Part shown: positions 17,453-35,429 of the stretch, piece after piece
Position numbering within the stretch: position 1 is the stretch's first letter
Layout: every line of letters begins with the position of its first letter
From: Celeribacter ethanolicus
Lineage (GTDB): Bacteria; Pseudomonadota; Alphaproteobacteria; Rhodobacterales; Rhodobacteraceae
DNA: 64,000 nucleotides
Assembly (NCBI RefSeq): GCF_001550095.1
Contig: NZ_LRUC01000051.1
Span: forward strand, 1-64,000
Direction of reading: 5' to 3'
Notes under the pieces: model-generated
Seen by the model: only the letters and a program-made list of their open reading frames with translations
Told to the model about the DNA's origin: nothing
Databases searched by the model: none
Position numbers and translations under genes: made by a program

Positions 17453-17615
17453 GATGAATCCCTTTCGTTAATCACTGATCCATTGCGGAGATTTTGCGGG
17501 CCATGCCATATCGTGACAGAGGTGTCAAAGGCTTTTCCCTCAAAAAACCGTAAAGACCATGGTCTGGGCGCTACAGGCAGGGTATGGCAGGAAAAACCGG
17601 GGCGAAAGGTCAAAA

Positions 17616-18311
17616 ATGCGCGAAATCCGATTGCAGGGCGACCCGCCCGTTTCCGTGACGCTGCGGCGCTCTGCCCGGGCTCGGCGGCTGTCTCTGCGGG
17701 TGTCGCGGCTCGACGGGCGGGTGACGCTTTCGATGCCGCAGCGCCTGCCGGAGGCGGAGGCGATCGCTTTCGTCGAGGAAAAGCAGGACTGGATTCGCAA
17801 GCATCTCGCAGGGCGCAGCCCGGACCGGATGCCGGTGTTCGGAGCGCATCTGCCGTTTCTGGGGCGTGAGTTGATGATCGTGCCGGGGCAGGGACGGCGG
17901 GCGCAGGTCATGGACGGCGCTTTGCAGGTGCCGGGCGGGCCCGAGAGCGTGGCGGCGAAAGTGCGGGCCTTTCTCAGGCTCGAGGCGCAGATGCGGCTGC
18001 GCGCGGCCTCTGATCGCTATGCGGAGGCGCTAGGCGTCGGGTACGGGCGGATCACGCTGCGCGATCCGCGGTCGCGCTGGGGGTCCTGTACGTCCCAGGG
18101 CAATCTAATGTATTCTTGGCGGCTGGTAATGGCGCCGCCTGAGGTGCTGGACTATGTCGCGGCTCATGAGATGGCGCATCGGCTGGAGATGAACCATTCG
18201 GAGCGGTTCTGGGCGCATGTGGCGCGCATCTGTCCGGGACACAAGGCGCATCGGGACTGGTTGCGCCGCGAGGGTGAGCAGTTGCATGGCTGGCGGTTCG
18301 AGACGGATTGA
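17616..18311 (+). CDS. YgjP/SprT-like zinc metallopeptidase (DUF45)
   Basis: A 231-residue protein with the family block SRWGSCTSQGNLMYSWRLVM followed by zinc-binding HEMAH (the AAHEMAHRLEMNHS segment, about residues 180-193), and WAHVARICPG near the end, all diagnostic of the YgjP-like metallopeptidase domain. Predicted cytoplasmic; substrate unknown. ATG 17616 has AAAGG 6 nt upstream and is preferred over ATG 17559, whose upstream sequence is poor. The GntR/FCD regulator gene follows after 31 bp. Confidence 0.88.
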   Translation: MREIRLQGDPPVSVTLRRSARARRLSLRVSRLDGRVTLSMPQRLPEAEAIAFVEEKQDWIRKHLAGRSPDRMPVFGAHLPFLGRELMIVPGQGRRAQVMDGALQVPGGPESVAAKVRAFLRLEAQMRLRAASDRYAEALGVGYGRITLRDPRSRWGSCTSQGNLMYSWRLVMAPPEVLDYVAAHEMAHRLEMNHSERFWAHVARICPGHKAHRDWLRREGEQLHGWRFETD

Positions 18312-18324
18312 CCTTGCCGCTTTT

Positions 18325-18334
18325 TGTGATCACA
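18325..18334. promoter_or_regulatory. TGTGATCACA palindrome at GntR/FCD regulator gene
   Basis: A perfect 10-bp palindrome in a TTTT-flanked context, 8 bp before the regulator ATG, at the end of the metallopeptidase gene. The same 10-mer precedes sucC and sdhC. Its placement over the translation start region suggests autorepression (inference). Confidence 0.7.
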
Positions 18335-18342
18335 TAGCAGCC

Positions 18343-18996
18343 ATGATCCATCCATCCCCCCGACCGACCGACCATTCCTCCGCCGCCCATGACCGGGTGT
18401 ACCGGGCCTTGCGCACGCGCATCATGCATGGCGAATTTCGCCCAGGCGAGGCGCTCACCCTGCGCGGCATCGGCAAGATGTTCGACGTCTCCATGACCCC
18501 CGCGCGCGAAGCGGTGCGGCGGCTGGTGGCGGATGGCGGGCTGAACCTCTCGGCCTCGGGGCGGGTGTCGACGCCGGAGCTGTCGAACGAGCGCATCGAG
18601 GAACTGGCGGCGATCCGGGCGCTGATCGAGCCGGAGCTGGCCTCGCGCGCTTTGCCGCGGGCGCATATCGCGCTGATCGACCGGCTTCAGGCGATCAACA
18701 GCACGATTGCCGAGGCGGTCGCGAAACACGATGACGTGGGTTATATCCGTACCAATCTCGAATTTCACCGCACGCTTTACCTGCGGGCGCAGGCCCCGGC
18801 GATGCTGGCGTTGACGGAGACCGTCTGGCTGCAATTGGGGCCGACGATGCGGGCGTTATATGCCCGTCTGAACCGCACGGAAGTGCCACACAATCACCGG
18901 CTGATCGTGGCGGCGCTCAGGGCAGGCGATGAGCCGGGACTTCGGCTTGCGGTGCGGTCTGACGTGACGCAGGGGCTGCGGATGCTGGCGGTTTGA
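18343..18996 (+). CDS. akgR: GntR/FCD transcriptional regulator, probable AkgR (TCA-cycle regulator)
   Basis: A 217-residue FadR-type factor with a winged helix at about 15-80 (GEALTLRGIGKMFDVSMTPA) and an all-helical FCD effector domain at about 85-215. The FCD metal/ligand positions appear in NLEFHRTLY and HNHRLIV. I chose ATG 18343 because homology to GntR starts just after it; the frame is open further up inside the metallopeptidase gene. Known: a GntR-family factor named AkgR directly activates TCA-cycle genes in Rhodobacter sphaeroides. Seen here: its own promoter, sucC and sdhC share TGTGATCACA. The symbol rests on this context and on fold, not on an alignment. Confidence 0.75.
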   Translation: MIHPSPRPTDHSSAAHDRVYRALRTRIMHGEFRPGEALTLRGIGKMFDVSMTPAREAVRRLVADGGLNLSASGRVSTPELSNERIEELAAIRALIEPELASRALPRAHIALIDRLQAINSTIAEAVAKHDDVGYIRTNLEFHRTLYLRAQAPAMLALTETVWLQLGPTMRALYARLNRTEVPHNHRLIVAALRAGDEPGLRLAVRSDVTQGLRMLAV

Positions 18997-27271: not shown

Positions 27272-28465
27272 TCAGCCCTTCACTGCTTTCACGATTTTCT
27301 GGGCGCCGTCTTTGAGGTCGTCGGCGGCGATCACGTTCAGACCGGAGTTCTGAATGATCTCTTTGCCAAGCTCCACGTTGGTGCCTTCGAGACGGACCAC
27401 GAGCGGAACCTGAAGGCCCACTTCTTTCACGGCCGCGATCACGCCTTCGGCGATGATGTCACAGCGCATGATGCCGCCGAAGATGTTCACGAGGATGCCT
27501 TTGACGTTCGGATCCGAGGTGATGATCTTGAAGGCTTCGGTCACTTTCTCTTTGGTCGCACCGCCGCCCACGTCGAGGAAGTTCGCCGGTTCTGCGCCGT
27601 AGAGTTTGATGATGTCCATGGTGGCCATCGCGAGACCCGCGCCGTTCACCATGCAGCCGATCTCGCCGTCGAGCGCGATGTAGTTCAGGTCGAACTTGGA
27701 GGCTTCGAGCTCTTTGCTGTCTTCTTCGGTCTCGTCGCGGAGTTCCACGATGTCCGGGTGACGGTAGAGCGCGTTGCCGTCAAAGCCGAGCTTGGCGTCG
27801 AGCACTTTGAGGTTGCCGTCGGTCATCACGATCAGCGGGTTGATTTCCAGCATCTCCATGTCTTTCTCGATGAAAGCACGGTAGAGATCGCCCATCAGTT
27901 TGACGCATTGCTTCACCTGCGCGCCTTCGAGGCCGAGGGAGAAGGCGATGCGGCGGCCGTGGTACGGCTGGTAGCCGGTGGCCGGATCGACGGAGAAGGA
28001 GAGGATTTTCTCGGGGGTGTTGGCCGCCACTTCCTCGATGTCCATGCCGCCCTCGGTGGAGGATACGAAGGACACGCGGGAGGTCTGACGATCGACGAGC
28101 AGAGCGAGGTACAGTTCGCGGGAAATGTCGGAACCGTCTTCGAAATAGATGCGGTTGACCTGTTTGCCAGCCGGGCCGGTCTGGTGGGTCACAAGGGTCT
28201 TGCCCAGCATCTTCTTGGCTTCTTCCGCAGCCTCCTCGACGGATTTCGCCAGACGCACGCCGCCTTTTTCACCGGCTTCGGCTTCCTTGAATTTGCCTTT
28301 GCCGCGACCACCTGCGTGGATCTGGGCCTTGACGACCCACAGCGGACCGTCAAGCTCACCGGCGGCGGACTTGGCGTCCTCGGCGCGGGTGATGGCACGA
28401 CCGCCGGAAACCGGCGCGCCATATTCCTTGAGAAGGGCTTTCGCCTGATACTCGTGGATGTTCAT
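27272..28465 (-). CDS. sucC: Succinyl-CoA ligase beta subunit
   Basis: ATP-grasp subunit that activates succinate and contacts the SucD phospho-His. The 397 residues start [20 protein letters not shown] and contain the ATP-grasp segments [35 protein letters not shown] and the loop [18 protein letters not shown] 28465 has AGGA 8 nt upstream. A long upstream frame to 28717 crosses the promoter palindromes and is not coding. It is the first gene of the minus-strand suc operon, downstream of two TGTGATCACA sites. Confidence 0.97.
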
Positions 28466-28855
28466 TAGAGATATCCTCTCCCTGGTTCGATTGGTCCCGT
28501 GTATGCCATCGGAAACCGGGCATAAGAAATGGTTTTTTGCCCCCTCGGCGGTAAAACGCGCGTGTTTTCGTTTTTTGTGATCACAGCAAAGTTTTGTGTG
28601 ATCACAAATTTGGAGAATCGCTTTGGCCGAATCCGGAGAAGGCGTCAGACCCCTGTTCTCAGGGCACATCCGTGCTGCGGGGCAGCATGGGATGCGACGC
28701 GGTGTGGGCCGCGACAAAGGAACGGGACGGGATCGGGATATAGAGATATGTGTCCTGACTGTGACGGATTGTCAGTTTCTTGAATGTGATCTCGCCACCC
28801 GGCGGTCTCGGGGTATAGAACGAAGTCAACAGATTCGATAAAGAGGACCCTTCCC
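28466..28855. other. Divergent intergenic region between sucC and outer-membrane gene
   Basis: A 390-bp region with no convincing gene. It holds two TGTGATCACA palindromes (annotated separately) near sucC and, towards 28750-28855, the promoter and purine-rich leader of the outer-membrane protein (AGAGGACC before its ATG). Short frames crossing the palindromes look like chance. Confidence 0.7.
28576..28606. promoter_or_regulatory. Two TGTGATCACA operators upstream of sucC
   Basis: Perfect 10-bp palindromes at 28576-28585 and 28597-28606, centres 21 bp apart (two helical turns). They lie 111-141 bp upstream of the sucC ATG, a normal activator distance, and are the same motif as at the GntR/FCD regulator gene and sdhC. 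Confidence 0.75.
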
Positions 28856-34753: not shown

Positions 34754-34771
34754 AATTTGTGATCGCAAATT
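34754..34771. promoter_or_regulatory. Degenerate TGTGATCACA-like palindrome after mch
   Basis: AATTTGTGATCGCAAATT is an 18-bp palindrome with one mismatched pair, and its centre equals the TGTGATCACA motif with one base changed. It sits between the mch stop and its terminator, about 280 bp upstream of sdhC. Confidence 0.55.
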
Positions 34772-34861: not shown

Positions 34862-34954
34862 TAGCGCTACATTTGTGATCACACCTACAATCTTGTGATC
34901 ACAATGCGTGTTTTGAGTGACATTAATCCTCGAAAAGAGGTTTTGTTAGCGCTA
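34862..34954. promoter_or_regulatory. sdhC promoter: paired TGTGATCACA sites flanked by TAGCGCTA palindromes
   Basis: TAGCGCTA at 34862-34869, TGTGATCACA at 34874-34883, TTGTGATCACAA at 34893-34904 (core 10-mer at 34894-34903, centres 20 bp apart), and GTTAGCGCTACC at 34945-34956 (core TAGCGCTA at 34947-34954). The two outer palindromes are 85 bp apart, about eight helical turns, which would suit DNA looping by a LacI-type protein. The sites span from 170 to 90 bp upstream of sdhC. Regulator names (AkgR, CceR) are inference. Confidence 0.7.
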
Positions 34955-35039: not shown

Positions 35040-35429
35040 ATGGCTGATGTGAACCGCGGCAACCGGCCGCTTTCTCCCTTCATGCTCGGAAAATACTATC
35101 GCCCGCAGATGACTTCGATCTCGTCGATTCTCGTGCGGATCACCGGCAACGCCCTGATTGCGGCGGCCTTCCTCTCGGTCTGGTGGCTTCTGGCCGCTGC
35201 GACTGGCCCCGAATATTTCGACTTCGTCAACTGGCTCATCACCTCATGGATCGGCGACATCGTGATGTTCCTGTCCGTCTGGGCGCTCTGGTACCACTTC
35301 GGCGGCGGCTTGCGTCACCTGGTGTGGGACGCGGGCCGTTGCCTCGATGTGGCGACGTCCGAGAAACTTGGCTGGGCGATGCTGATCGGTGCCACGATCA
35401 TGACCATCATCACCGCGCTCGTGGTCTGA
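35040..35429 (+). CDS. sdhC: Succinate dehydrogenase cytochrome b556 subunit
   Basis: Membrane anchor that binds heme b and quinone for complex II. The 129 residues start MADVNRGNRPLSPFMLGKYY and carry three hydrophobic segments (about 30-50, 65-90, 105-128), with HFGGGLRHLVWD in between; the His in GLRH is the expected heme ligand. AGGA lies 7 nt before ATG 35040. First gene of sdhCDAB; sdhD follows after 12 bp. Confidence 0.95.
   Translation: MADVNRGNRPLSPFMLGKYYRPQMTSISSILVRITGNALIAAAFLSVWWLLAAATGPEYFDFVNWLITSWIGDIVMFLSVWALWYHFGGGLRHLVWDAGRCLDVATSEKLGWAMLIGATIMTIITALVV

Follow-up and report, generated by a model that had tools for sequence, protein, structure and literature searches.

The GntR/FCD regulator gene of the Celeribacter ethanolicus window (a stretch of 64,000 nucleotides, positions 1 to 64,000 of contig NZ_LRUC01000051.1) very probably encodes an orthologue of AkgR of Rhodobacter (Cereibacter) sphaeroides, and the palindromes before the regulator gene, sucC, and sdhC are very probably its operators (Table 1). 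The observation in the first-pass annotation, that the regulator shares one operator with sucC and sdhC, was confirmed. The system is largely known, as it is very probably the AkgR system in another host; the additions to it are a sharper operator rule and a lineage-specific site before the regulator's own gene.

Table 1. Positions of the regulator gene, its proposed targets, and the putative operator elements in the window
Feature	Position	Strand	Basis
ygjP-like metallopeptidase gene, just upstream of the regulator gene	17559..18311	+	Pfam YgjP-like
Regulator own-gene operator TGTGATCACA, single copy	18325..18334	.	Window motif scan and conservation in relatives
akgR orthologue (probable), GntR/FCD regulator, 217 aa	18343..18996	+	Pfam GntR and FCD
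sucC, first gene of sucC-sucD-sucA-sucB-lpd, proposed target operon	27272..28465	-	Pfam ATP-grasp_2, Ligase_CoA
sucC pair, operator nearer to sucC	28576..28585	.	Exact TGTGATCACA
sucC pair, operator farther from sucC, 21 bp from the other	28597..28606	.	Exact TGTGATCACA
Candidate third operator (auxiliary) TGTGATCGCA, located 116 bp before the sdhC pair	34758..34767	.	One mismatch
CceR-like box TAGCGCTA, upstream of the sdhC pair	34862..34869	.	Inferred
sdhC pair, operator farther from sdhC	34874..34883	.	Exact TGTGATCACA
sdhC pair, operator nearer to sdhC, 20 bp from the other	34894..34903	.	Exact TGTGATCACA
CceR-like box within GTTAGCGCTACC, between the pair and sdhC	34947..34954	.	Inferred
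sdhC, first gene of sdhCDAB, proposed target operon	35040..35429	+	Pfam Sdh_cyt, translation

A scan of the window re-found all five exact copies of TGTGATCACA where the first-pass annotation had placed them, and no further exact copy was present, in agreement with its claim that there was no other perfect intergenic copy. The own-gene copy does end 8 bp before the regulator gene (last base at 18334, ATG at 18343). When one mismatch was allowed, six matches were found in the window for 1.44 expected, and none of 100 shuffles reached six. The genome-wide scan that the annotation had suggested covered 4,205,101 bases and returned eight exact copies, five of which precede the regulator gene, sucC, and sdhC and three of which lie elsewhere; the same pattern read backwards had no copy in the whole genome. 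With the three copies elsewhere in 4.2 Mb taken as background, the probability that the three 200-bp regions contain at least one copy was approximately 4e-4, and five copies were seen.

The comparison with AkgR was made through one of 394 genomes of the family (G051), which encodes the reference reaction-centre L chain at 100% identity. The reference is presumably the R. sphaeroides sequence; as a query, it matched PDB chain 1aig_L, which we also take to be that of R. sphaeroides, over its full length. The genome is called R. sphaeroides-like here, a label that depends on the species assigned to this L-chain sequence. The window regulator and the copy in this genome are 77% identical over 215 residues, and a single regulator match at E <= 1e-40 was found in each of the two genomes. 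The R. sphaeroides-like gene lies beside ygjP, approximately 0.75 kb past sdhB, and was assigned the tag RSP_0981 by gene order. RSP_0981 is assumed to be AkgR, as it reportedly is in the mBio study of AkgR from 2015. In the R. sphaeroides-like genome, the sucC pair comprises one site with a mismatch and one exact site, 21 bp apart, and both sites of the sdhC pair are exact, also with a spacing of 21 bp.

In PMC4344238, the GntR regulator RSP_0981 is predicted to regulate RSP_0967-6 (sucCD), RSP_0974-6 (sdh), and RSP_0965-62 (2-oxoglutarate dehydrogenase). PMC6365646 names GTGATCAC among the AkgR binding sites and terms AkgR a transcriptional activator. The GTGATCAC motif is present in the window sites. 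Because of the 77% identity, the same pairs at sucC and sdhC, the published RSP_0981 regulon, and the published GTGATCAC motif, the regulator is very probably the AkgR of a further host, which supports the suggestion of a local AkgR made in the first-pass annotation. The sites at the sucC and sdhC promoters likewise agree with the published predicted regulon and thus with sucCD-AB and sdhCDAB as targets. Regulation of sucCD, sucAB-lpd, and sdh by the window regulator is therefore proposed from these sites. The genes sucD, sucA, sucB, lpd, sdhA, and sdhB of the proposed operons were identified by NCBIfam, and an mdh-like gene lies beyond the sucC promoter.

The two systems have in common the suc-sdh and ygjP linkage, the motif, and the two promoters with paired sites, and they differ in several details. 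The Celeribacter gene stands beside lpd rather than sdhB and has an operator of its own, which the R. sphaeroides-like copy does not. The two sites of its sdhC pair are 20 bp apart, compared with 21 bp in the R. sphaeroides-like genome, and this pair has a candidate auxiliary site and CceR-like boxes nearby. Among other related regulators, PS417_07240 of Pseudomonas simiae is proposed to use GTGATCAC as well; it is only 32% identical to AkgR and is located at a deoxyribonate oxidation cluster, according to PMC6365646. The predicted fold of the window regulator (mean pLDDT of 84.6) was closest to E. coli McbR (4p9f, TM of 0.80), which is the closest solved structure by both sequence and fold. 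McbR and Atu1419 (VanR) share the GntR/FCD fold at identities of only 24% and about 21%, respectively, and have other targets. The canonical metal ligands of FCD domains are Asp/Asn-His-His-His. In the window regulator, N138, H142, H185, and D207, picked as ligands by eye, were invariant in 38 aligned orthologues and have Asp rather than His as the fourth member; they perhaps form a metal or acid site.

Tandem pairs were searched in 149 genomes of the family, each from a different genus, as two exact sites with gaps of 5 to 30 bp. Exact pairs were present in 94 of the 149 genomes, and the control matched in none of the 149. Of the 75 exact pairs listed, 63 had a spacing of 21 bp, seven of 20 bp, and five of another length. 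The operators of the enzyme genes are thus tandem pairs two helical turns apart, a spacing of 20-21 bp being shared by 70 of these 75 pairs. Thirty loci with exact pairs were examined, and the pairs were located before sucC (24 loci), sdhC (five loci), and sucA (one locus). No suc or sdh gene was detected at the exact pairs with other spacings in L209 (15 and 27 bp), L210 (31 bp), and L211 (24 bp); the exact pair of G061 had a spacing of 22 bp. A limited literature search, which did not extend to the primary AkgR paper, met no report of the tandem spacing of the sites.

The pair sites started 105 to 183 bp before sucC (41 regions) and 132 to 221 bp before sdhC (16 regions); these regions were mostly chosen for holding a pair, and 41/41 and 16/16 are not independent counts. 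The DNA downstream of the pairs was also inspected for a conserved promoter element in 40 sucC and 15 sdhC regions (the duplicates L107 and L109 were dropped, and other rows share genomes). The only signal came from A/T-rich blocks that follow the sucC pairs, and these were not strong enough to locate a promoter. Among 385 sampled genomes of the class, a degenerate 21-bp pair was found in four of five genomes of the own family versus one of 380 others. The exception (G553, another family; L340 991-1021) has its pair between a TonB-receptor gene and a GntR/FCD gene whose product is 26% identical to the regulator, and related regulators can therefore share the motif.

The presence of the pairs was compared with that of the regulator in the same 149 genomes. 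A match at E <= 1e-40 was found in 134 genomes, and 133 were considered to have an orthologue: G054, whose only match was a 37% identical paralogue, was counted as lacking it, and G033 and G122 (48-49%) were counted as having it. An exact pair was present in 93 of the 133 genomes with an orthologue versus one of the 16 without (Fisher p = 9e-7, for genomes that are not independent). For genomes without exact pairs, a degenerate pair was defined by up to two mismatches in each site and a spacing of 20-21 bp. In the first 14, in handle order, of the 40 regulator-bearing genomes without an exact pair, a degenerate pair preceded sucC at 13 of 13 loci and sdhC at 11 of 14, the remaining three sdhC regions having no degenerate pair with the regulator present. 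In the 16 genomes without the regulator, a pair was found before sucC at three of 15 loci and before sdhC at two of 14. In this test, G021 was omitted for sucC (its sole match being a 50% paralogue), G037 had no sucC match, and G019 and G021 had no sdhC match.

Three genomes (G019, G096, and G114) keep pairs without a detected orthologue. Their assemblies are fragmented (210, 50, and 320 contigs, respectively); G096 has a completeness of 77%, and G114 is rated 100%, so that an assembly gap is unproved as the cause in G114. In G109, the regulator is split over two frames beside ygjP (L323 1504-2099), and one decayed site is left at sucC and none at sdhC. The frame split is either a true break or a sequence error.

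The conservation of the own-gene site was evaluated in 80 relatives, which were the best 80 of 555 confirmed stretches and hence close relatives; among them, the closest named relatives of the regulator were those in Celeribacter sp. PS-C1 (92%) and Celeribacter halophilus (88%). The site was found at up to one mismatch in 69 of the 80 (63 exact and six with one mismatch), while a control window further upstream had none in 80 at up to two mismatches; 11 of the 80 had no site within two mismatches before the regulator. The site started 9 to 33 bp, and once 61 bp, before the start codon in these 80 relatives, as judged from starts extrapolated from the window's protein. It was also present before the 48% identical regulator in L208. 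The first-pass annotation had proposed that the regulator is autoregulated. As a prediction for the Celeribacter gene, autoregulation is well supported by the site kept in these close relatives; the R. sphaeroides-like copy lacks the site, the best 10-mer in 200 bp having four mismatches. Despite cluster rearrangement between genomes, ygjP was also seen to adjoin the regulator gene in L206, L208, L323, L221, and L230.

Other proteins were considered as users of the sites. TGTGA and TCACA are CRP half-sites, and the annotation had itself raised a CRP-type site used by another regulator. A CRP site is TGTGA-N6-TCACA, with 6 bp between the half-sites. This spacing is absent in the five copies, in all of which the half-sites abut, and the pairs are mostly missing in genomes without the GntR regulator. 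Because the half-sites abut and the pairs track the regulator, a CRP/FNR-type site serving a global regulator was rejected as extremely improbable; in addition, according to PMC4344238, no CRP analogue is predicted for R. sphaeroides. Binding by a GntR/FCD paralogue of the same genome (e.g., C41:120275, 34% identical), alone or in addition to the regulator, would fit its recognition helix, which appears similar by eye, and the occurrence of GTGATCAC with distant relatives (PMC6365646; G553). It would also fit G019 and G114, which keep pairs and in which only 33-35% paralogues were found. Against this, only such paralogues were found in other genomes, such as G054 and G101, which have no pair at sucC or sdhC, and the motif precedes the window regulator's own gene in 69 of 80 close relatives. 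On these two grounds, a paralogue as the binder was rejected and is considered very unlikely.

The remaining alternative concerns the direction of control, with AkgR itself as the binding protein. Some related solved structures are termed repressors (Atu1419), and the own-gene site is positioned as for a repressor, so that the protein might repress at all three regions. This is improbable, as PMC6365646 calls AkgR a transcriptional activator and the sites at the enzyme genes, in regions mostly selected because they hold pairs, begin about 105-220 bp ahead of the start codon.

We infer that AkgR would act with different signs on the enzyme genes and on itself. Each palindrome YGTGATCACR would be bound by a dimer. 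Two dimers would lie on the same helix face at sucCDAB-lpd and sdhCDAB, on sites that are 20-21 bp apart and begin about 105-220 bp ahead of the start codon, and would activate transcription from there. The regulator gene has a single site, located after the preceding gene and ahead of the start codon, and one dimer bound there would limit transcription of the regulator. Activation of the enzyme genes combined with self-repression is suggested because the pair positions leave room for a promoter, the own-gene site is near the start, and the published role is that of an activator. Activation from the pairs is likely, and self-repression is the somewhat favored prediction for the own gene. The ligand may be a TCA-cycle acid such as 2-oxoglutarate, for which the only hint is the published name.

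Further elements were found near the sdhC pair. The candidate auxiliary operator TGTGATCGCA stands after a MaoC-like gene. Of four other genomes of the genus that were examined, three (L256, L259, and L261) have the same TGTGATCGCA variant at 115-116 bp from their sdhC pair, again on its upstream side, and the fourth (L257) does not. The TAGCGCTA boxes flanking the pair presumably resemble CceR sites, and boxes like GTTAGCGC were found in L257, L259, and L261. PMC4344238 gives GTT-N6-8-AAC as the motif of RSP_1663 and predicts this regulator at sdh, and GTTAGCGCTACC of the window differs from this pattern at one base. A wider scheme can be put forward only tentatively and is rather doubtful: operator number and position would switch the sign of control, with far-upstream two-turn pairs activating and a lone start-codon site mediating self-repression; in part of Celeribacter, the third operator, 115-116 bp (approximately 11 turns) upstream of the sdhC pair, would add a DNA loop interlocking with the CceR boxes; and R. 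sphaeroides would have lost the self-repression arm.

The three exact copies outside the cluster in the own genome were located within an open frame of 106 aa that weakly matches a Hint domain (C38:7574), approximately 200-215 bp upstream of a ptsP-like gene with GAF and PEP-utiliser domains (C43:28054, 28054-28063), and approximately 1.1 kb from a transposase-domain frame in a stretch to which no gene was assignable (C44:106096). To look for further regulon members, 29 exact-site loci outside the suc-sdh cluster were compared with one another: these three and 26 from seven other genomes of the genus, with one locus each from G395-G399. Among the 29 loci, those of the own genome had a single match, that of L002 to L251 of G394; it was due to the ptsP-like gene, which is a possible extra AkgR target. 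An exact TGTGATCACA precedes the gene in that other genome as well (L251 1001-1010); the own-genome counterpart is at L002 1501-1510, and the intergenic DNA has partly diverged with the site kept. The own genome was not involved in the other matches. That of L217 and L235 was due to a site inside a shared frame of two genomes, and that of L240 and L242 to a near-identical frame occurring twice in one genome; weak matches linked L217/L235 with L238 and L218 with L250. Nine further loci were L219-L221, L223, and L227-L231. Four of them precede sdhC and two precede the regulator gene, and at the other three (L227, L228, and L231), no gene of the cluster was seen and no ptsP.

No new kind of system is revealed by these results. 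They extend the predicted control of TCA-cycle genes by AkgR beyond R. sphaeroides to its marine relatives, among which the regulator and its operators go missing together in most cases, and the operator rule (YGTGATCACR pairs 20-21 bp apart) can be used to predict the regulon across the family.
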